This document shows positions 2,214 through 10,134 of a stretch of 24,099 nt of DNA, piece after piece (positions within the stretch are counted from its first letter, which is position 1; the number at the start of each line of letters is the position of its first letter). Both the position numbers and the translations under genes were made by a program. The notes under the pieces were generated by a model. The model searched no databases, was not told the origin of the DNA, and worked only from the letters and a program-made list of their open reading frames with translations. Origin of the DNA: a virus. The DNA lies in IMG/VR virus record IMGVR_UViG_3300005588_000094, positions 1 to 24,099 of that record; one strand, 5' to 3'.

Positions 2214-2418
2214 AAAGCCGATAAAACACTTGCATATCCCCAATGATGATACCGCCGCCGTAAAGGATCATGGCACTATACGGCTGGTTACATCAAAGGA
2301 GTTTGCGGACGATTACGGGGGCACAGACACGCTAATCGTCAACTATTGCCTGTTTACATTTGGTGGGGTAGTTGTTGGCGCCATGTCTGGATTCTTGCTG
2401 TGCAAATTTGTGATATAA
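2206..2418 (+). CDS. Small C-terminally anchored membrane protein
   Basis: 70 residues from ATG 2206 (71 from ATG 2203). I prefer 2206 because AAGGGGG is about 6 nt upstream. The gene overlaps the end of the regulator gene. Residues 1-45 are polar and charged; residues about 46-70 are hydrophobic (VNYCLFTFGGVVVGAMSGFL), a single membrane helix at the extreme C-terminus, so the N-terminal part would face the cytoplasm. Not recognised. Its position next to the switch region is where phages often carry accessory or superinfection genes, but nothing specific supports that here. Confidence 0.65.
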   Translation: MGRKPIKHLHIPNDDTAAVKDHGTIRLVTSKEFADDYGGTDTLIVNYCLFTFGGVVVGAMSGFLLCKFVI

Positions 2419-2419
2419 T
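2411..2419 (+). promoter_or_regulatory. Extended -10 promoter TGATATAAT
   Basis: A perfect TATAAT preceded by TGn forms an extended -10 element, overlapping the stop codon of the preceding gene. There is no good -35 at 16-18 bp, which extended -10 promoters tolerate. Predicted start is about 2426, the first base of the folded element described next. Confidence 0.6.
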
Positions 2420-2425
2420 TAAACT

Positions 2426-2491
2426 AATGACGGCTTACCAGATATTGGCCCATCTGGGACAGCCGGAAACCCATGCGCGGTTGCCGTCATT
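2426..2491 (+). ncRNA. Predicted three-way-junction RNA element (leader or small RNA)
   Basis: Nine perfect base pairs close the element (AATGACGGC 2426-2434 with GCCGTCATT 2483-2491). Inside are a hairpin CCAGAT/ATCTGG (2438-2443, 2452-2457; 8-nt loop) and a second stem AGCCG/CGGTT (2461-2465, 2478-2482; one G-U, 12-nt loop), with only 3 nt joining strands, so the whole 66 nt forms a compact three-way junction. It starts at the predicted transcription start. It could be a 5' leader of the replication gene at 2527, a processed small RNA, or a poor terminator: a weak TTTCCTTCTTT follows. No known riboswitch or ribozyme class was recognised. Confidence 0.5.
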
Positions 2492-2526: not shown

Positions 2527-3342
2527 ATGGCTGCATTACCATACATAAAATTATTCCCTGCCGATTATCTGGCGGATACTCAACACTTGACCCTAGAAGA
2601 GCATGGCGCATATTTGCTCCTAATCATGAATTATTGGCAAACTGGCAACGCTTTACGAGCAGAAAGTCAACGGATTGCCAGCGTTTGTTCAACGTCCGTT
2701 GAAAATTGGTTGAAAATACGCCCAATACTATCGGAATTCTTTACAGAAACCACTGATCCAGCCACTGGGCACCTAATTTGGACACATCACCGTATAGAAG
2801 AGGACATTACCGCAGTTCGCAACAAATCTATAAAAGCGAGTATGGCGGGCAGAAAATCAGCCATGCAACGTGCTGAAATTAAAAAGAATTCGAACGAACG
2901 TTCAAAATCCGTTCAACGAAAATCCAACCATACAGAAGCAGAAGCAGATACAGATAAAAGAAAAATAAAACAAAAAGAAAATTTACAACCGATAACACCA
3001 AAAGGGCTTAATCAATCCGCCTGGGATGAATACACAAAATACAGGGCAGATAATAAAATCCGCAAACTTAAACCTGCCTCTGTATCAAAACAGCAGCGAT
3101 GGCTTGTTGAACGTGGGGACACAGAAACACAACAGGCAATCGTCGATCAAACAATCCGTAATGGCCACCAGGGTCTATTCGAGGTAAACGGGAGCAACGG
3201 AAATGGAACTGCAAAAAAACAGAACGCCTCACAATTCCTCGACAACTGCATTGCATTCGCCAATGGAGGAACGGTGGATCGCTGCGATATTTTCGAGGAT
3301 GCAATCAAGGTACCTGCACAAATGGTCAAGCGCATTTCCTGA
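2527..3342 (+). CDS. DUF1376 (YdaU-like) phage replication protein
   Basis: 271 residues. Residues 5-43 (PYIKLFPADYLADTQHL, then EEHGAYLLLIMNYW) are the hallmark of DUF1376, the N-terminal winged-helix domain of phage/prophage replication-initiation proteins. After about residue 100 the chain becomes lysine- and asparagine-rich (a flexible linker, roughly 100-160), and a second helical domain at about 160-271 holds SAWDEYTKYR and VERGDTETQQAIVDQTIRNG, typical of the C-terminal part of these proteins. Together with the next gene it resembles a lambda O/P pair: origin recognition, then helicase recruitment. The start has only a weak GGGTA upstream. It overlaps the next gene extensively. Confidence 0.85.
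   Translation: MAALPYIKLFPADYLADTQHLTLEEHGAYLLLIMNYWQTGNALRAESQRIASVCSTSVENWLKIRPILSEFFTETTDPATGHLIWTHHRIEEDITAVRNKSIKASMAGRKSAMQRAEIKKNSNERSKSVQRKSNHTEAEADTDKRKIKQKENLQPITPKGLNQSAWDEYTKYRADNKIRKLKPASVSKQQRWLVERGDTETQQAIVDQTIRNGHQGLFEVNGSNGNGTAKKQNASQFLDNCIAFANGGTVDRCDIFEDAIKVPAQMVKRIS
2687..2990 (+). other. Candidate replication-origin segment inside the DUF1376 gene
   Basis: Two copies of GTTCAACG (2687-2694, 2911-2918), an inverted repeat TTCAACG-TC-CGTTGAA (2688-2703), and GAACGTTC (2896-2903) are followed by a strongly A-rich coding stretch (about 2934-2990). Phage origins often lie inside the initiator gene with iterons next to an AT-rich segment, as in lambda O. The repeats are few, so this is only a suggestion. 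Confidence 0.25.
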
Positions 3343-3830: not shown

Positions 3831-4016
3831 ATGACTCTTGAAGAGGCAGAACTAAATATTGGCAGCTGGTTGTCTGCAGCACTAGACGATGACCTTATTT
3901 GTGATGGGATGAAGACAGATATTTTAAACTGGTTCGCTGCACTTGAAGAGAGGGATAAAACCGATCGGTTCGATCTGTGGAAAAAAGCTGTCGCGTCTGG
4001 GTTTGGTACATCATGA
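3831..4016 (+). CDS. Hypothetical acidic protein (61 aa)
   Basis: 61 residues, ATG preceded by AAAAGGGGATTAACG. Sequence is acidic and amphipathic (LNIGSWLSAALDDDLI, DILNWFAALEERDK), suggesting a small helical bundle. Last bases overlap the next start (ATGA). No relation recognised; in the same run of small genes as its neighbours. Confidence 0.65.
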   Translation: MTLEEAELNIGSWLSAALDDDLICDGMKTDILNWFAALEERDKTDRFDLWKKAVASGFGTS

Positions 4017-4216
4017 ATCCTGAAAAAATCAAAGAACTAAAGCATGAAAGAGACCACGCACATAAATCATTGCTCGATGCTCCATCGCCACTACTCTATC
4101 CAGACAGATCAGGAGACTGGCTTGAACAGGCTCAGAGCCTTGTGATGGAATATGGCGAGTGGTATGAAAACTCTCGCGCTACTGCATTAAGTTTAATCCA
4201 TAACGGAAAGCTATAG
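4013..4216 (+). CDS. Hypothetical protein (67 aa)
   Basis: Start taken at ATG 4013, overlapping the TGA of the previous gene, rather than the longer frame from 3977 that would intrude 40 bp. The product begins MNPEKIKELKHERDHAHKSL; Trp/Tyr-rich C-terminal half (DWLEQAQSLVMEYGEWYENS). Likely helical. No family recognised. A 30-bp gap with GGAGG follows before the next gene. Confidence 0.6.
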   Translation: MNPEKIKELKHERDHAHKSLLDAPSPLLYPDRSGDWLEQAQSLVMEYGEWYENSRATALSLIHNGKL

Positions 4217-4246
4217 ACCCAAACTACTGGAAACGGAGGCATGTAA

Positions 4247-4507
4247 ATGTTGACTGATGATACAAAGCTTGCGTTGGAATCTCCTGCCGATGGAGATATG
4301 GCAAAGATCAAGGAAAAGTCGAAGATTATTATTGCACTGAAAGACAACGATAGGAAAAAATCATACAAGTATGTCCCTATGTGTGAGATAGGGTTTTTAA
4401 AATCCTATGTTGATAATCACAATAGTCGTATGTCACAGGCAGCACGCAGAAATAACAGTAACAACTCAAATTGGAGTTTTGCTAATGGGGTTAGGAGGCA
4501 GTACTGA
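4247..4507 (+). CDS. Hypothetical protein (86 aa)
   Basis: 86 residues, ATG 4247 with ACGGAGG about 8 nt upstream. N-terminal half acidic, then a basic middle (KIKEKSKIIIALKDNDRKK), then a C-terminal tail rich in Asn, Ser and Arg (NNSNNSNWSF). Pattern suggests a nucleic-acid-contacting or disordered tail but no domain is recognised. It ends one base before the methyltransferase start, so the two are probably co-translated. Confidence 0.55.
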   Translation: MLTDDTKLALESPADGDMAKIKEKSKIIIALKDNDRKKSYKYVPMCEIGFLKSYVDNHNSRMSQAARRNNSNNSNWSFANGVRRQY

Positions 4508-4508
4508 G

Positions 4509-5177
4509 ATGGACGATATCGTTAAAATCGGGGATGCCACTCTCTACCTCGGCGACTGCATGGATATCCTGCCGACGCTCGGCAAGGTCGATGCCGTGGT
4601 GACTGATCCGCCTTATGGGGTAAATCTAAATACTGATAATTCAAGATTTAGCGGTGGCACTGCTGGACATATAGCCAAAAGAGGGAATGATGTTGGTACG
4701 GCTAACGGTGAGCCAATTGCTGGAGATTCAGAACCTTTTGACCCTTCATTTTTGGTTGGCTATGGGGAGGAACAAATTATCTGGGGGTGGCATAATTTCC
4801 CAAACAAACTTCCTGCAGGAGCGTGTCTTGTATGGATAAAACGGCATGATGCTGCATTTGGTTCATTCTTGAGTGATGCGGAAACCTGCTGGTTTAGTCG
4901 AGGGCATGGTGTTTATTTGTACAAAGACATATCAAACAATCGCATTGCAAAAATACGGCAGCATCCGACCCAGAAGCCAACGGAGTTGATGCGGTGGTGT
5001 ATGGGTAAACTCTTGAAAGATTGTTCAATCATCCTAGACCCCTTCATGGGCAGCGGCACAACCGGCGTGGCCTGCGCACACGAGCGCACCTTCATCGGTA
5101 TCGAGAAGGAACCAAAGTATTTTGACATAGCATGTGAGCGTATCGAAGCCGCTTATGCACAGGGGAGGTTATTTTGA
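4509..5177 (+). CDS. Solitary beta-class DNA methyltransferase (N6-adenine or N4-cytosine)
   Basis: 222 residues. Catalytic motif IV DPPY is at 33-36 and the SAM-binding motif I DPFMGSGTTG at 177-186, preceded by HPTQKP at 152-157; this IV-before-I order is the beta class (N6_N4_Mtase family). The enzyme transfers a methyl group from S-adenosylmethionine to an exocyclic amino group in a specific site. I placed the start at ATG 4509, directly before MDDIVKIGDATLYLGD, with AGGAGG about 10 nt upstream; the longer frame adds 34 unrelated residues. No restriction enzyme is adjacent, so it probably protects phage DNA from host restriction or alters regulation. Target sequence cannot be deduced. The target-recognition segment (about 40-150) is short. 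Confidence 0.9.
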   Translation: MDDIVKIGDATLYLGDCMDILPTLGKVDAVVTDPPYGVNLNTDNSRFSGGTAGHIAKRGNDVGTANGEPIAGDSEPFDPSFLVGYGEEQIIWGWHNFPNKLPAGACLVWIKRHDAAFGSFLSDAETCWFSRGHGVYLYKDISNNRIAKIRQHPTQKPTELMRWCMGKLLKDCSIILDPFMGSGTTGVACAHERTFIGIEKEPKYFDIACERIEAAYAQGRLF

Positions 5178-5461
5178 AAACATGTTGCTTTGATTACTGT
5201 GACAAGGAAGAGTGGAGCCGTACCCTATGCCGTCCTCATTACTACGAATACATCACAAAGGGCAAAGATAACTGCCGTGCGAGATTTCCTGATGGGCGAA
5301 GGTTGAACAATCGTAAAAATACAGATGATGAGGTTGAACTTGTCAGGAAGCTACATGATTATGGCGTGATGCCTAAACAAATCGCAGAGATTTTGAATAT
5401 CCCGTATAACACGATACAGGGATATGTGTATTATACAGACAGAACTGGGGTGGAATTATGA
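5174..5461 (+). CDS. Zinc-binding and helix-turn-helix protein (95 aa), TTG start
   Basis: Begins with TTG overlapping the methyltransferase stop (TTGA), with GGGGAGG 6 nt upstream, so an unusual but well-supported start. Residues 4-23 hold C-C-x3-C-x9-C-x2-H-Y (CCFDYCDKEEWSRTLCRPHY), the 'GLCxxHY' zinc-binding motif common in phage HNH-associated and small DNA-binding proteins. The C-terminal half (about 52-85) has a helix-turn-helix: VELVRKLHDYGVMPKQIAEI followed by NIPYNTIQGY. Hence a DNA-binding regulator is likely. No HNH nuclease motif is present. Target unknown. Confidence 0.75.
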   Translation: MKTCCFDYCDKEEWSRTLCRPHYYEYITKGKDNCRARFPDGRRLNNRKNTDDEVELVRKLHDYGVMPKQIAEILNIPYNTIQGYVYYTDRTGVEL

Positions 5462-5631
5462 GCAAAGACGATAAACATTACGATGAGGCGAGAAAAAAGA
5501 GCTCGTATACATTGGGGCGCGATGACGGGCGTGCATCAATGAAGCTGGATGTATTGTATTTGATGCGCTCATTCACAGGACGCGATTTTACGTTAGCTAA
5601 ATTGGTTAAAGACATTGAGGATTTATCATGA
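5458..5631 (+). CDS. Hypothetical charged protein (57 aa)
   Basis: 57 residues from ATG 5458, overlapping the preceding stop by ATGA and itself overlapping the following gene by ATGA. Starts MSKDDKHYDEARKKSSYTLG; C-terminal half (KLDVLYLMRSF, TLAKLVKDIEDL) looks helical. A weak GGGGTGGAA is upstream. No family recognised. Likely co-translated with neighbours. Confidence 0.6.
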   Translation: MSKDDKHYDEARKKSSYTLGRDDGRASMKLDVLYLMRSFTGRDFTLAKLVKDIEDLS

Positions 5632-5702
5632 ATAAAGCTAATAGCCTTAAAATTAATTGCGATGAAATGAGTGGCTGGTTCACAGATCCACAATTAAGAT
5701 GA
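5628..5702 (+). CDS. Possible 24-residue peptide
   Basis: ATG 5628 overlaps the previous stop and has GAGG 7 nt upstream; the frame ends 10 bp before the next gene. The product is MNKANSLKINCDEMSGWFTD plus four residues. Its only support is coupling and the ribosome binding site; it may simply be a short linker frame in the operon. Confidence 0.4.
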   Translation: MNKANSLKINCDEMSGWFTDPQLR

Positions 5703-5711
5703 GTCACGGAA

Positions 5712-6005
5712 ATGCCAAAACGTATCCAAAGAAAACGTACTTCAGGGTGGCGGATGCCGGACAATGCTAAATCTGTGACGCGTCCGCATAAATACGGTAA
5801 TCCGTTTGTGGTCGGCAGGGATGGTGGTGCCGATGAATGTGTTATGTTGTTTCGTGAGGCCGTTATAAATAACGATAGTAGAATTAAGTTCACACGGGAA
5901 GACTTGAAGGCACTGCGGGGTAAGGATCTAGCTTGTTTCTGCGCTCTTTCCGATCCATGCCATGCTGACGTGTTGATTGAGATGGCGAACAAGGAACTAT
6001 TATGA
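5712..6005 (+). CDS. DUF4326 family protein
   Basis: 97 residues. The order MPKRIQRKRTSGWRMP, then RPHKYGNPFVVG, then LRGKDLACFCAL, then PCHADVLIEMAN, matches the DUF4326 family found in phages and actinobacteria; the C-x-C-x(6)-C-H cluster (residues about 77-87) may bind metal. Function is unknown in the family; some authors place it near nucleotide-modifying folds, which I cannot test here. The start ATG 5712 is preceded by ACGGAA. It overlaps the next gene by ATGA. Confidence 0.85.
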   Translation: MPKRIQRKRTSGWRMPDNAKSVTRPHKYGNPFVVGRDGGADECVMLFREAVINNDSRIKFTREDLKALRGKDLACFCALSDPCHADVLIEMANKELL

Positions 6006-6157
6006 CTCACGTAAATTCAAAATGCTGCGAGACATGCGCTCACGGTGTCGGTGAATGGGACCACGAGGCCGCTATGCCTGTGTGGTATTGTTACAAGGAT
6101 CAGTTTGGGAGCGAGCAATGCGGCTGTTATGAGCGCGATCCGGGGAGTGAAGGATAA
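6002..6157 (+). CDS. Cysteine-rich small protein (51 aa)
   Basis: 51 residues with six cysteines in C-C-x2-C near the N-terminus (residues 8-12) and C...C-x-C towards the end (30-42), plus histidines; the arrangement suggests a small zinc finger or ribbon. Starts with ATGA overlap from the DUF4326 gene and ends TAATG with the next Cys-rich gene. No family name can be given. The adjacent gene has a similar Cys/Trp-rich makeup, so the pair may be related in function. Confidence 0.65.
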   Translation: MTHVNSKCCETCAHGVGEWDHEAAMPVWYCYKDQFGSEQCGCYERDPGSEG

Positions 6158-6369
6158 TGCTAGAATCTGAAACATGTGAAAAATGGTGTCCTGCTGTGCA
6201 AGTCATTGTTGCAAAGAATGGGGACATTATAACCAATCGTATGGACCATGAATATTCTACGTCGGAATGTATCGGGAGCAATTGCATGGCCTGGGTTGAG
6301 GAGGGTGTTAGGATGACTGATGAAGGAATGTGCCCATCTGGACGTTGCGGATGGGTGAAACGTGGATGA
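6157..6369 (+). CDS. Cysteine-rich hypothetical protein (70 aa)
   Basis: 70 residues with cysteines at 7, 11, 38, 43, 59 and 64 arranged as three C-x3/4-C pairs, e.g. CEKWC, CIGSNC and CPSGRC. This spacing suggests a metal-binding or disulphide fold; similar small 'C..SNCMAW' proteins occur in phages without known function. The start is TAATG-coupled to the previous gene, with GTGAAGGA upstream. Its end overlaps the resolvase gene by 8 bp. Confidence 0.7.
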   Translation: MLESETCEKWCPAVQVIVAKNGDIITNRMDHEYSTSECIGSNCMAWVEEGVRMTDEGMCPSGRCGWVKRG

Positions 6370-6676
6370 AAGTAATAATCGAGCTACCGTACCCACTGCC
6401 GACCTGGAACAGGTTACTGGCATGCCACCAATGGCAAAGGATGAAAATCCGTCATTTGATTCACCAGTCACTATCCGGGTTATCAGTTATCGAAAGAGGG
6501 AGCATGATACTGATGGGATTAGCGCAAAAGCCGTTATCGATGGACTTGTGGGAATTGGAATACTCGCAGATGATTCGACCAAACAAGTCAAAAGCGTTAC
6601 ATTTGAAAGCCGCAAGACCGAAAAGGGCGAAAAAGAAAAGACTATAATTGAAATTGATGACAACCTGGGAGAATGA
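6362..6676 (+). CDS. RusA-like Holliday junction resolvase
   Basis: 104 residues with a GTG start. From residue 32 on, SPVTIRVISYRKREHDTDG, then SAKAVIDGLVGIGILADDST, then KSVTF and KEKTIIEI follow the RusA fold; the acidic residues of HDTDG and ADDS are in the places of the catalytic aspartates that cut Holliday junctions. RusA works as a dimer on recombination or replication intermediates. An overlapping frame from ATG 6366 begins MKVIIELPYPLPTWNRLL and resembles the N-terminal strand of classical RusA (see findings), so the N-terminal 30 residues are less certain. The previous gene overlaps by 8 bp. Good confidence in the domain. Confidence 0.8.
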   Translation: MDESNNRATVPTADLEQVTGMPPMAKDENPSFDSPVTIRVISYRKREHDTDGISAKAVIDGLVGIGILADDSTKQVKSVTFESRKTEKGEKEKTIIEIDDNLGE

Positions 6677-6677
6677 T

Positions 6678-7022
6678 ATGCCTGATGATACTCAAGAAGA
6701 GGCGCTAGATGATAAAGTCGAATCAATGAGGCAGCAGGTCGAAGACCTTAAACCAAACCCAAGAAATGCAAAAGGAATGCCACACCCCACACAGGAGGAA
6801 GTAATCAATCGGATTGAGTGGATAAATAGATCTCTCAGGCAAGACCTTAAGTCCGCTCGGCTATTAGTTGATCGTTACGATTATGATAACCGCAAGCTGC
6901 AGAGGGAAAATAAAAAACTTAATGGTAAAATGAAAGCCAGAAGGAATATTGATCGACTTAATGAATTGAAAGAGAAGCTGGCACCAGCAAGACGGCGACT
7001 TTCGAAAGCATTTAAATACTAG
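6678..7022 (+). CDS. Hypothetical coiled-coil protein (114 aa)
   Basis: Start at ATG 6678 (GGGAG 7 nt upstream, just past the resolvase stop) rather than the frame extending from 6648. Residues 10-30 and 45-105 are strongly charged and heptad-like (RIEWINRSLRQDLKSARLLV; NRKLQRENKKLNGKMKARRN), so it should form a long coiled coil. A Pro-rich piece lies between (about 28-40). Unknown function. Similar coiled-coil small proteins recur between here and terL. Confidence 0.65.
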   Translation: MPDDTQEEALDDKVESMRQQVEDLKPNPRNAKGMPHPTQEEVINRIEWINRSLRQDLKSARLLVDRYDYDNRKLQRENKKLNGKMKARRNIDRLNELKEKLAPARRRLSKAFKY

Positions 7023-7037
7023 CGAGGTGGGCGAGAT

Positions 7038-7310
7038 ATGGGTAAAAAGATCGATGGCTTGTTTGCATACGTAATAGTCCAGTTCGAGTTGATTATGGAC
7101 TATTTTCTTGATGTTAATGGCAGGATAGAATCCATTGAAATTGAAATAGAGGATATTAAACGTAGGCTGGGAGACGTGGAAACGCATGTTATTGGTGACG
7201 GTAAGTTTACTGCTATAACTGAGGAGGAGGCTGAATTAATCCTGAAGACCAGGAAAAATACAGGGGGACTGAACCGTTTACGTAAACATTGGTTTAATAC
7301 TTCTGCTTGA
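7038..7310 (+). CDS. Hypothetical protein, MGKK-start family member 1 (90 aa)
   Basis: 90 residues beginning MGKKIDGLFAYVIVQFELIM; a second gene at 8925 begins MGKKLDAIWDYMIEMGRDVM, so the two share an N-terminal module of Gly-Lys-Lys-[IL]-Asp followed by an aromatic helix. After residue 30 comes a coiled-coil stretch (RIESIEIEIEDIKRRLGD). A GAGGTGGG lies upstream of ATG 7038. Likely paralogous small proteins; function unknown. Confidence 0.65.
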   Translation: MGKKIDGLFAYVIVQFELIMDYFLDVNGRIESIEIEIEDIKRRLGDVETHVIGDGKFTAITEEEAELILKTRKNTGGLNRLRKHWFNTSA

Positions 7311-7335
7311 GTGTATTGGAGTTTTGTAGTAAAGT
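7307..7335 (+). promoter_or_regulatory. Possible promoter before gene 7357
   Basis: TTGAGT (7307-7312), 17-bp spacer, TAAAGT (7330-7335). Each box matches four of six consensus bases. It lies in one of the few gaps (46 bp) in this gene string, followed by AAGGGGAAA and ATG 7357. Weak but well spaced. Confidence 0.35.
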
Positions 7336-7356
7336 GTTACTGATAAGGGGAAATTC

Positions 7357-7752
7357 ATGAAAAAGAAAGCGATGAAACGGGAAGTGAAGCAATACCGGAT
7401 ACTTATGGAGATGATCCGGCAGAAGGAAAAGGCGGCTTATCTGTCGGGTGGAGATGGTGGGGGAAGTGTATGGTTTTTTATTGGCGACTTGGGTGCGTAT
7501 GATGTTCAGTTCTTGACAGACGATGAGGTTACGGCGGTAAAGAAGCATAGGATTGCTGAGGTGGCAAAGGAGCATAAGGCTATGATGGATGATAAGAAAG
7601 AGAAGATGGATCGTGAGCAAGCTATAAGGGACATGCATTACTGGCTTGCTGGGATGAAAAGCAGTAATGAGGCGAAAAAGGACATTGAGCAATTTCAAAA
7701 AGAAGTACGTGATAGGGACTGGCTGGATAAGGTAGGGGCCAGCAATGGATAA
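7357..7752 (+). CDS. Hypothetical protein (131 aa)
   Basis: 131 residues, AAGGGG upstream of ATG 7357. An N-terminal basic helix (MKKKAMKREVKQYRILMEMI), a Gly-rich turn (SGGDGGGSVWFFIGDLG, about 31-47), then a long charged helical region (60-125). No domain recognised. It overlaps the following HTH gene by 8 bp, suggesting shared expression with it. Slight resemblance to scaffolding of a DNA-binding partner is not supportable. Confidence 0.6.
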   Translation: MKKKAMKREVKQYRILMEMIRQKEKAAYLSGGDGGGSVWFFIGDLGAYDVQFLTDDEVTAVKKHRIAEVAKEHKAMMDDKKEKMDREQAIRDMHYWLAGMKSSNEAKKDIEQFQKEVRDRDWLDKVGASNG

Positions 7753-8080
7753 ATACACAGAGCTATTGCAAAAGAACAAGGAAAGGAACAACAATATCTT
7801 TGTGTCAGTCATGAACGGGGAGACCCTAGAAAGGGAAGGGGCGCGGCATGATATTTCACGCGAGAGAGTGAGGCAGATAGTCCACCGGCTACTCCGTAAC
7901 GCGGTAAGAATCGCAAGCATGAAGGGACACCCGATAGACAAACCTAAATCCATGAGAGATGCTAGAAAAAACAAGGAGTTATATCTGCGCATTCTAGGTC
8001 TCATGCCAAAAAAAGAGAATCAGAAGTTTTACTACAAGGTGAAAAGCAGGAAAGGAGGTAGAAGTGGGACGTCTATTTGA
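7745..8080 (+). CDS. Sigma70 region-4-like HTH protein, candidate late regulator
   Basis: 111 residues. Residues 25-52 (GETLEREGARHDISRERVRQ followed by IVHRLLRN) closely follow the sigma70 region 4.2 helix-turn-helix (consensus 'TLEEIG..fgVSRERVRQIE..AL.KLR') that contacts the -35 box. The rest, about 60 basic residues, is not sigma-like and no regions 1-3 are present, so it is a region-4-only protein. It precedes the terminase and virion genes, the usual place of phage late-gene activators. Start ATG has GGTAGGGG upstream; overlap of 8 bp with previous gene. Fold assignment good; role inferred. Confidence 0.75.
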   Translation: MDKYTELLQKNKERNNNIFVSVMNGETLEREGARHDISRERVRQIVHRLLRNAVRIASMKGHPIDKPKSMRDARKNKELYLRILGLMPKKENQKFYYKVKSRKGGRSGTSI

Positions 8081-8321
8081 AATTTCACGCTCTGATGCAG
8101 AGGCTATTGTTGATCTGTTCGAGGCAACTGGCATACAGGAAAGGATTGATTTTGCTGCAGAATTAAGGGAAGAGTTCGGTATGGCTAAGTGGGATGGTGT
8201 GATGCCAGTCTCGCTGTGTGTAAGCGAGGTTTGTGCACGGTATCTATACCAGCCATTATTCGTATCTCCATGGAGAGAGCTTTCCACGAACAATGATATT
8301 AAAGGGCATAGCAATGGCTAA
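8064..8321 (+). CDS. Hypothetical protein, GTG start (85 aa)
   Basis: GTG 8064 with AAAGGAGGT 5-6 nt upstream is a clear start, although it lies 17 bp inside the previous gene. Product: MGRLFEISRSDAEAIVDLFE..., with an amphipathic helix (ATGIQERIDFAAELREEFG) and a Cys- and Tyr-containing C-terminal part. No family recognised. It overlaps terS by 8 bp and so probably belongs to the packaging operon. Confidence 0.65.
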   Translation: MGRLFEISRSDAEAIVDLFEATGIQERIDFAAELREEFGMAKWDGVMPVSLCVSEVCARYLYQPLFVSPWRELSTNNDIKGHSNG

Positions 8322-8688
8322 CAGAGTAGGCCGACCTACAAAGTACAACGAGGAAATATTAGAAGACTCGTGGTATTACCTTGAAAACTATAAGCTTATT
8401 GGGGATGAGATACCGATGCTGTGTGGCCTTGGGCAGTATCTGGGTATCCACAAAGACACTATCCAGGTGTGGGCGAAGGAGGAGGGGAAAGAGGAGTTTT
8501 CCTTATTAGTAGGGCTAATCAAGCAAGCACAGGAGTCCAGATTGATTAATGGAGGGCTTAAGGGCGAGCTTAACGCCACGATTACCAAGCTAGTGTTGGC
8601 TAGGCATGGGTACACCGACAAGCAGGAGCTTACAGGCGCTGATGGCGGCCCTGTCCTGCCTACTGAGTACGTTGTTACGTTTAAATGA
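8314..8688 (+). CDS. terS: Terminase small subunit
   Basis: 124 residues. The opening NRVGRPTKYNEEILEDSWYY, then LGQYLGIHKDTIQVWAKEEG, then LINGGLKGELNATITKLVLA, then RHGYTDKQELTGADGGPV, is the pattern of the phage gp3-like DNA-packaging small terminase family (helix-turn-helix for binding the packaging site, followed by an oligomerisation region). It recognises pac/cos DNA and hands it to TerL. I start at ATG 8314 with AAGGG about 7 nt upstream; the frame extends 27 codons further upstream but overlaps the previous gene. Separated from terL by six genes. Confidence 0.9.
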   Translation: MANRVGRPTKYNEEILEDSWYYLENYKLIGDEIPMLCGLGQYLGIHKDTIQVWAKEEGKEEFSLLVGLIKQAQESRLINGGLKGELNATITKLVLARHGYTDKQELTGADGGPVLPTEYVVTFK

Positions 8689-8701
8689 CTTGGGGGTTGA
8701 T

Positions 8702-8905
8702 ATGGAAGGAGTAAAATATTCTTATGCGGAAAGGAAAGGGCTAGAATATTCTTATGCGGAAAGGAAAGGGCTAGATAGTGAAGCCATAGAGCTAAGGAAA
8801 ATGATCCGAGATAATGGCGATCTGATTGCTTCGTTGATCGAAATTGTAAAGAGGATGGAGGTCCAGAACGAAGATATTCTGGGTATTAAGTTAACCGAGA
8901 AGTAA
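8702..8905 (+). CDS. Hypothetical protein with a 10-residue duplication (67 aa)
   Basis: ATG 8702 follows GGGGGTTGAT. Residues 5-24 consist of the 10-residue unit YSYAERKGLE in two copies (second ends in D), encoded by an exact 30-bp tandem duplication. The rest (25-67) is a helical region (ELRKMIRDNGDLIASLIEIV) with coiled-coil character. No family recognised. Lies in the small-gene insertion between terS and terL. Confidence 0.55.
   Translation: MEGVKYSYAERKGLEYSYAERKGLDSEAIELRKMIRDNGDLIASLIEIVKRMEVQNEDILGIKLTEK
8715..8774 (+). repeat. Exact 30-bp tandem duplication
   Basis: Unit 8715-8744 (AATATTCTTATGCGG then AAAGGAAAGGGCTAG) repeated perfectly at 8745-8774, in frame. No mismatch, so it arose recently or is an assembly or replication slip. 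Confidence 0.95.
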
Positions 8906-8924
8906 ATAACCTGGGGAAATAACT

Positions 8925-9320
8925 ATGGGTAAAAAGCTTGATGCTATATGGGATTACATGATTGAAATGGGCCGTGATGTGATGGGTATCGATATGCGGT
9001 CATTCAGCAACGAGGAACGGATAACAGCACTTGAGGCGGAGGTGAAGGGGATTCTTGCCGATACGATTAAAATAGGATGCCTGCCACCAGAAGAAGATAA
9101 TAGCATATACAAAGCATGGCCTTCAGAGCCGCTTATAAAGTTCCATGACGAGAAGAGGATGGAAAGACTTGCCGCCCTAAGGGCAGAGCTAGGCACTGTG
9201 CGGATGTTGTTAAATGAGGCATGTGATAACGGTGACTATGCAGGTAGAGATCTATACGGGCACAGAGTAGGTATTTTAAATCTTGAAGTCAATCGACTTG
9301 AGAGGGGGGGAGAGTCATGA
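8925..9320 (+). CDS. Hypothetical protein, MGKK-start family member 2 (131 aa)
   Basis: Begins MGKKLDAIWDYMIEMGRDVM, paralogous at its N-terminus to the protein encoded at 7038. Residues about 45-120 hold two charged helical runs (RITALEAEVKGIL, RMERLAALRAELGTVRMLL). GGGG lies about 8 nt upstream of ATG 8925. Its stop overlaps the next gene by ATGA. Unknown function. Confidence 0.65.
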   Translation: MGKKLDAIWDYMIEMGRDVMGIDMRSFSNEERITALEAEVKGILADTIKIGCLPPEEDNSIYKAWPSEPLIKFHDEKRMERLAALRAELGTVRMLLNEACDNGDYAGRDLYGHRVGILNLEVNRLERGGES

Positions 9321-9634
9321 CTAAAGCGAAACAGAAAATATCAACCGATGGGATAGTAGCAAAGCTTGATGATATCTATAACTACACAGGTGTCCTGCTA
9401 CATGAGATGACAGACGTTGATGCATGTACTGACATGCTTGAGGTAAGGCGGGAGATAAGACTGTTGCGTATGAGCATCAAGCCATATCCATCAAGCATAG
9501 TGAGTAAGGATGAGGGTGAGTTAAGCATAGCGAGTGCAATGAGCAAGGATTATGGCCAGCCCGTGAAAGATCCAGATAAATTCCTGAAAGAGGTGATGGC
9601 TGAGGTCATGGGCAATCAGCTATATCCAAAATGA
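9317..9634 (+). CDS. Hypothetical protein (105 aa)
   Basis: 105 residues; GAGAGGGGGGAGAG just upstream of ATG 9317. The N-terminus (TDGIVAKLDDIYNYTGVLLH) recalls the 'KLD.I..Y' motif of the MGKK genes, so it may be a diverged third member. C-terminal half contains SKDEGELSIASAMSKDYGQP. It ends in ATGA overlap with the homing-endonuclease gene. No known role. Confidence 0.6.
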   Translation: MTKAKQKISTDGIVAKLDDIYNYTGVLLHEMTDVDACTDMLEVRREIRLLRMSIKPYPSSIVSKDEGELSIASAMSKDYGQPVKDPDKFLKEVMAEVMGNQLYPK

Positions 9635-10134
9635 ACCTAACACAAGAACGATTAAAAGAAGTCCTGCACTATGACCCCGAGACAGGGGTGTTTACCTGGC
9701 GGGTTTGTTTGTCTAATGTTACCCCTGTTGGGTCTGTCGCTGGAACTTTTATTGGGTCTGTTGCTGATCGGGCTAGAGGGAGAATGTACCGGTCAATAAA
9801 AATTGATCGTGTGGCATACAGAGCGCATAGGCTTGCGTTTCTTTACATGACAGGGGAATTCCCGGCAGATGAAGTGGACCATATCAGACATGATAGGTGT
9901 GACAATAGATGGAAGGCTCTAACAAAGGCTACAAGGCGAAGTAATTGTCATAACCAATCACTACGAGAAACAAGCAAGACAGGGCACATTGGGATCAGCC
10001 TCAAGAAGAACGGGCAATATTATGTATGCATTGCTCACAAAAACTGTGGTGTTTATGATAGCCTAGAAGATGCCGTCGCTGTATCACGAAAGAAGTACAA
10101 GGAACTAGGATACCATCCAAATCATGGGAAATAA
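9631..10134 (+). CDS. HNH homing endonuclease-like with AP2 domain
   Basis: 167 residues. HNH_3 type core: YRAHRLAF (63-70), EVDHIRHDRCDNRW (81-94) with the catalytic Asp-His pair at 83-84 and Asn92, and NCHNQS (105-110). The C-terminal part (117-160, TGHIGISLKKNGQYYVCIAH and EDAVAVSRKKYKELG) is an AP2-like DNA-binding domain. Such free-standing genes cut DNA of related phages lacking them and spread by repair. No Shine-Dalgarno is visible; ATG overlaps the preceding stop, so it is probably translated by coupling. Inserted between terS and terL, a frequent location. Confidence 0.9.
   Translation: MNLTQERLKEVLHYDPETGVFTWRVCLSNVTPVGSVAGTFIGSVADRARGRMYRSIKIDRVAYRAHRLAFLYMTGEFPADEVDHIRHDRCDNRWKALTKATRRSNCHNQSLRETSKTGHIGISLKKNGQYYVCIAHKNCGVYDSLEDAVAVSRKKYKELGYHPNHGK

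Follow-up and report, generated by a model that had tools for sequence, protein, structure and literature searches.

What does a compact, branched RNA do when it appears to begin exactly at a promoter and lies directly in front of a phage replication gene? The window analyzed here (IMGVR_UViG_3300005588_000094, a virus record of 24.1 kb taken at its full 24,099 nt) poses this question with an element on the + strand at 2426–2491. An earlier note on the same DNA had pointed to an extended −10 promoter, a nine-pair closing stem, two inner hairpins and a compact junction, and each of these is present in the sequence as described there. The promoter element TGATATAAT has no −35 match in the window, and its position predicts a transcription start at about 2426, where the closing stem P1 begins (nine Watson–Crick pairs, 2426–2434 with 2483–2491). 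Within P1, two hairpins complete a three-way junction with 3+3+0 unpaired junction bases. Two further features went unmentioned in that description: a palindrome, GGCC at 2447–2450, in the apical loop of P2, and two downstream repeats complementary to L3, the loop of P3 (2466–2477, including ACCCAT at 2469–2474). The features are as follows.

2411 to 2419, + strand: extended −10 promoter element TGATATAAT, overlapping the final codons and stop codon of the open reading frame at 2203–2418.
2426 to 2491, + strand: predicted three-way-junction RNA core, based on covariance-model matches and pair counts.
2438 to 2457, + strand: P2 hairpin of 6 bp (2438–2443 with 2452–2457), five of the six pairs showing double changes.
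2461 to 2482, + strand: P3 arm AGCCG/CGGUU of 5 bp (2461–2465 with 2478–2482), the fifth pair covarying.
2490 to 2500, + strand: pyrimidine-rich linker TTTCCTTCTTT after P1, with T enrichment across the family.
2501 to 2508, + strand: repeat R1, GCTTGGGT, complementary to L3 through the core TGGGT (2504–2508); the longer match has one mismatch.
2514 to 2519, + strand: repeat R2, ATGGGT, complementary to L3 and covering the sole SD-like bases in front of the 2527 start codon.
2527 to 3342, + strand: primosomal/replication protein (DUF1376, PHROG primosomal protein), the proposed controlled gene; its product matches Pfam PF07120 (E 1.3e-19) and phrog_6451 (E 2.5e-32).

Taken alone, the window gives chance-level statistics for both the inverted repeat and TGNTATAAT. 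Three nine-bp inverted repeats with 20–60 nt spacers are seen versus 2.7 expected, TGNTATAAT occurs once versus 1.14 expected, and, once GC content is allowed for, a fold equally good or within 0.5 kcal/mol is reached by about 54 of the 66-nt stretches across the two strands. For the isolated 66 nt, the three-way junction has a predicted energy of −23.9 kcal/mol versus −25.3 kcal/mol for the minimum free energy fold and a pairing probability of about 0.09, that is, about 9% of the predicted ensemble; several longer transcript contexts are predicted to refold. Nearly all relatives of the primosomal gene lack the element at this place, and the gap to the upstream open reading frame is 108 nt in the window versus a median of 1.5 nt in 58 non-redundant relatives. 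An inverted repeat lying by chance beside promoter-like sequence would account for both the single-sequence statistics and the missing element in relatives, and it is the comparison between phages that refutes this explanation and, at the level of sequence, establishes the element.

A covariance model built from the single window sequence was run over 82 fetched sources (520 kb), and matched L018:2760–2818 (+) with 23.2 bits (E 0.0013), in an intergenic position about 180 nt upstream of the primosomal gene of another phage. The window and L018 have in common the pattern CGGCTTAC-N18-GGACAGCC-N13/14-GGTTGCCG, differ from one another by compensatory changes in P1 and P2, and carry TATAAT upstream at nearly equal distance. 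Directly upstream of the element in L018, at 2705–2747, lies a hairpin, ACGCCCTA...TAGGGCGT, followed on the minus strand by TTTTTGTTT; for leftward transcription this site resembles an intrinsic terminator.

Scanning viral contigs with the pattern GGCTTACN{14,26}GGACARCCN{8,24}GNTGCC gave 57 stretches; together with the window, 50 distinct matches were scorable. When only contiguous P1 and P2 pairs are counted, 22 of the 50 are structured; three more (L168, L175 and L196) also form the stems, though interrupted by a bulge or mismatch, bringing the family to 25 members including the window, and the other 25 distinct matches look like chance. Since members were initially chosen by eye, the split by stem pairs alone serves as the unbiased check: a −10 box matching at least 5 of 6 positions precedes 14 of the 22 structured matches versus 1 of the 28 others, and that one is L168, the member with a bulged P2. 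All 25 members enclose the core GGCUUAC-P2-GGACAGCC-P3-GGUUGCC within the closing stem P1, a core that the pattern scan biases towards invariance, with divergent members missed. The 24 members besides the window all belong to uncultured phages, mostly unrelated.

Evidence for the fold comes from covariation of its stems. Among the 23 members aligned to the model, standard pairs fill 95.0% of pair cells (74.2 ± 1.3 when shuffled), 101 pair cells are changed on both sides (29.0 ± 4.8 in shuffles), and the covariation score is 0.521, compared with 0.145 ± 0.017 for shuffled alignments and at most 0.088 for slid registers. This alignment leans towards its own model, and alignment-free anchored counts agree with it. 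In those counts all 25 members form the first two P1 pairs outside GGC/GCC, with four to five pair types, while P2 pairs one to four are present in 25, 23, 23 and 24 of the 25. The fifth P3 pair contributes 11 cells changed on both sides, while the inner P1 pairs and the other four P3 pairs are uninformative because their invariance is partly fixed by the search pattern. Compensatory changes in P1, P2 and the variable P3 pair are thus what the covariance search proposed in the earlier note brought out. That 25 members form the same three stems, with compensatory changes and with the −10 box at a constant distance, argues that the element is real.

Four features were not part of the search pattern: the −10 box, the pyrimidine tail, the palindromic P2 loop and the complementarity of L3. 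The best TATAAT match 8–12 nt before GGCTTAC averages 4.75 of 6 positions and reaches at least 5 in 15 of 24 members; at 18 control offsets the mean is at most 3.0, with at least 5 matches in at most 2 of 24. Pairing of L3 with the downstream region of its own phage gives a mean best helix of 21.0 versus 12.8 ± 0.5 when L3s are swapped between phages, and none of 300 such shuffles approaches the observed value (maximum 14.1). Two separate L3 helices together give 37.9, compared with 23.2 ± 0.9 after swapping. Relative to GCC at the end of the core, R1 mostly starts 11–20 nt and R2 mostly 23–36 nt downstream. In 23 of 24 members a start codon comes no more than about 15 nt after R2, and 19 of these 23 have an SD-like sequence that R2 overlaps; in some members the start codon is without a clear SD. 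The window itself has the weakest L3:R1/R2 helices of the family (5–6 bp) and a poor SD, and its 66-nt RNA taken alone is predicted to prefer another fold.

After the core, T accounts for 58–79% of bases at positions 7–11 past GCC when the whole family is counted, and certain members have runs as long as TTTTTT; the tail is too variable for an intrinsic terminator common to all members, and that reading was rejected. In 19 of 24 members the P2 loop contains a 4-nt palindrome (GATC, GGCC, AATT, CATG or TATA), always in the same register, and in two more (GATC, TGCA) it is shifted by one base. Counted anywhere in the loop, such palindromes occur in 22 members versus 10.1 ± 2.4 after shuffling (maximum 18). 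One pair of members is especially informative for specificity: the sequences flanking the element in L156 and L179 are nearly the same on either side, yet P2, L3, R1 and R2 all differ, a concerted change that has the appearance of specificity groups in an antisense system.

The genes that follow the element are predominantly replication genes. PHROG scans covered 20 downstream proteins and the window's own, leaving out L156, L179 and the cut-off L197 gene, and the annotations include replication initiation, O-like, primosomal, DnaD-like loader and primase proteins, many of them in mutually unrelated PHROGs. A replication-type gene lies close downstream, as the first or second open reading frame; exceptions are a methyltransferase-like gene in L158, a first gene without a match in L164, and a first gene in L169 that is HNH-like from sequence. 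The proposal of a structured RNA in front of the replication gene thereby gains support from covariation, from the recurring promoter position and from gene context in unrelated phages. At the level of sequence comparison, the conserved fold, the position of the promoter, the covariation of L3 with R1 and R2, and the gene context are each demonstrated.

Could these regularities reflect DNA rather than RNA? The element adjoins a replication gene, L3, R1 and R2 form an inverted and a direct repeat in DNA, and the P2 loop carries palindromes of 4–6 nt, as might be expected if L3, R1 and R2 were sites for a replication protein or part of an origin and the stems were hairpins of single-stranded DNA. 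The G-U pairs in P2 and P3 favor an RNA of the + strand, the promoter keeps a constant distance upstream, and R2 coincides with the translation start region, so that we consider a DNA element very improbable.

The surroundings of the element in the window follow a lambda-type gene order: a YdaS/Cro-like gene (2004–2213), a 71-aa orphan (2203–2418), the element, the DUF1376 primosomal gene (2527–3342) and a P-like helicase loader. The 71-aa frame, at the cII position, encodes a hydrophobic C-terminus, has the −10 element inside its last codons, and is without a Pfam or PHROG match. At 1946–1984 a 15-bp palindrome occurs in two nearly identical versions, TTGACAgaCTGTCAA and TTGACAttCTGTCAA, which lie 22 bp apart, overlap divergent promoter-like sites (TTGACA-17-TATGAT on the − strand and TTGACA-17-TAGTAT on the + strand) and are likely repressor operators before the Cro/YdaS-like gene. 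An open + frame at 2423–2518 with coding-like codon use was rejected as a gene for lack of a start codon, and two peptides tried from it had no match in named phages; it ends in a hydrophobic stretch and may be a gene remnant or arise by chance. The record opens (4–326) with about 18 tandem copies of the 18-nt unit CACCCGTGCATCACCGTA, with a 36-nt higher-order period (92% matches). A 36-kb contig, IMGVR_UViG_3300005612_000015, matches the window at 100% identity in the stretches compared (3831–10000, and the terminase and portal genes); it ends at about window position 3831 and by its coordinates would run past the right end of the window into more of the same phage. Two contigs with terminase and portal proteins 100% identical to those of the window do not reach the leader, and direct protein-based searches with the adjacent genes gave no near relative.

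Among the roles that the earlier note had left open, that of a riboregulator is favored by the complementarity between the P3 loop and the region of translation start. We propose an antisense-type leader RNA in which pairing of L3 with R2 would silence the replication gene, in cis and probably also in trans, by a logic resembling that of P4 CI and P1/P7 C4, and we put the probability of this reading at roughly 60%. A short promoter within the early operon would start transcription at the base of P1, and the first 66 nt would fold into the three-way junction and expose L3 as a specificity loop. Pairing of L3 with R2 over the ribosome-binding region of the replication gene would then repress its translation. 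That L3 can cover this region via R2 is the step best supported by the sequences, and translational control is for this reason the leading reading. R1, just past the linker, may be a competing site, given its position and its similarity to R2, and L3:R1 pairing would leave R2 free. The RNA may additionally work in trans against other copies of the same phage, as an antisense RNA, which would amount to copy control or replicative immunity. Three things point in this direction: a promoter of its own, a short folded unit that carries a pyrimidine tail, and the concerted change between L156 and L179. Except for the L156/L179 comparison, all observations fit a purely cis-acting switch equally well.

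The position of the promoter bears on how such an RNA might be used. The proposed operators and early promoter (1946–1997) lie upstream of the Cro-like gene and the promoter of the element lies downstream of that gene, and so a repressor acting only at 1946–1997 would leave the element's promoter active in the lysogen. In that case a block on replication by the RNA would presumably be needed, as in P4. The palindrome in the P2 loop might in turn allow RNA homodimers to form by loop–loop contact. As a tentative extension, one that we consider possible at best, the family could represent a class of self-dimerizing RNAs in which a kissing dimer through P2, dependent on RNA concentration and thus on genome copy, sets the choice of L3 between R1 and R2, so that in many unrelated uncultured phages the RNA would act as a copy-number sensor for initiation and for superinfection immunity.

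The conserved core is not accounted for by antisense pairing alone. Were the junction the aptamer of a metabolite or ion riboswitch, the choice of L3 between R1 and R2 would be its expression platform at the ribosome-binding site of the replication gene; the strongly conserved junction (UUAC, GGACA), its constant geometry across unrelated phages and the alternatives R1 and R2 in cis would all suit such a switch. The search pattern is, however, responsible for part of the junction conservation, a riboswitch would not need the variability of L3, R1 and R2 or the concerted L156/L179 change, and the gene context is replication only, without a metabolic theme, which makes this explanation unlikely. 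A host or phage protein could instead bind the junction or a dimer and control elongation or translation, the candidates being a ribosomal protein, RNA polymerase (as for HK022 put RNA) or a replication protein. The element begins at its promoter, as put RNAs do, and the palindromic P2 loop could give a symmetric dimer; protein binding alone would leave the L3-R1-R2 pairing unexplained, and we judge this possibility quite improbable. Autoregulation by the downstream product in particular is unlikely because the downstream proteins are unrelated between phages.

Returning to the antisense-type leader, its closest parallels are two phage systems. P4 CI RNA pairs with seqA and seqC, and premature termination shuts off the replication genes (PMC4825925). 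P1/P7 C4 RNA has three stem-loops and is excised by RNase P; its b' segment partly occludes ribosome-binding sites and a' gives specificity (PMC5320573). Like C4 (RF01695) and P4 CI, the element would be a small phage RNA with three stems and a variable loop complementary to two segments of its own transcript. Targets in C4 lie at or near a ribosome-binding site, as R2 does on the SD-like region, the controlled operon of P4 holds a replication gene, as with the element, and in both systems specificity differs between related phages. There are also differences: a single loop, L3, serves two downstream repeats, where C4 and CI use two loops or an upstream and a downstream target, and in the element a promoter of its own sits right at P1, the P2 loop is palindromic and the conserved core is another one. 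The Rfam C4 model gives no score above cut-off in the window or the other members, although the same tool detects the P4 CI region at 74.9 bits, and the family covariance model (itself named R2) has no match in P4. The element is therefore C4/CI-like in outline yet, judged by these model searches, not a C4 RNA. A promoter directly at P1 also suggests that its 5′ end is primary rather than cut by RNase P.

Other leader RNAs are more distant. Lambda OOP RNA occupies the corresponding place of a lambda-type early region, between the gene at the cII position and the O-like gene. OOP, an antisense RNA to cII mRNA, comes from the opposite strand, whereas promoter position and G-U pairs favor the + strand for the element. 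HK022 put RNA is a structured RNA of about 65–70 nt with which an early phage transcript begins; it has two hairpins and acts on RNA polymerase in factor-independent antitermination. By description it differs from the element, which is a predicted three-way junction with complementarity between a loop and the ribosome-binding site. In the pseudoknots of the IncB/IncIalpha plasmid repA/repZ leaders, the loop of a hairpin pairs to a distant site beside the ribosome-binding site, under antisense control. By description these leaders resemble the element as replication-initiator mRNA leaders with a loop that pairs near the ribosome-binding site; the element has a different fold, and neither leader-peptide coupling nor an opposite-strand antisense gene was seen. 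An 'M3-like RNA' of phage HK639 (L211 727–786, between the cII and replication genes) does not match the family model, and no description of it was found in the literature.

A scan of all Rfam 15 families, riboswitches and ribozymes among them, gave no match at gathering score or credible E-value, in keeping with the earlier note, which had recognized no known riboswitch or ribozyme class. Searches for members beyond uncultured phages, all of them weak, were likewise negative. BLAST against named phages and plasmids gave no convincing member, and one Proteus match was rejected as it lacks GGCTTAC and the inner part of P1. Twelve named-phage loci around replication genes hold no member, and bacterial genomes yielded 0 of 369 by the model, whose first pass scores few candidates and is weak, and 0 of 398 by exact pattern. 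A pattern specific to the P2 of the window found nothing, and the single match to a fixed-length P1 pattern was coincidental, in an unrelated stretch. No earlier description was found in the literature, with subscription journals mostly outside the search. The element thus looks like the window's member of a previously undescribed RNA family that is absent from Rfam 15.

An important aspect of this family, which lies beyond Rfam 15, is that it is common to phages with unrelated replication proteins. Since the replication proteins of the carrier phages are unrelated, a regulatory RNA cassette appears to have been exchanged in front of interchangeable replication modules. The family suggests that uncultured phages widely use RNA to control replication, a mode of control for which P4, P1/P7 and plasmids are the main known examples. 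With a variable loop and repeats that match each other, the sequence predicts groups of immunity or incompatibility, and the palindromic loop raises the question of whether RNA dimerization serves as a copy-number sensor.
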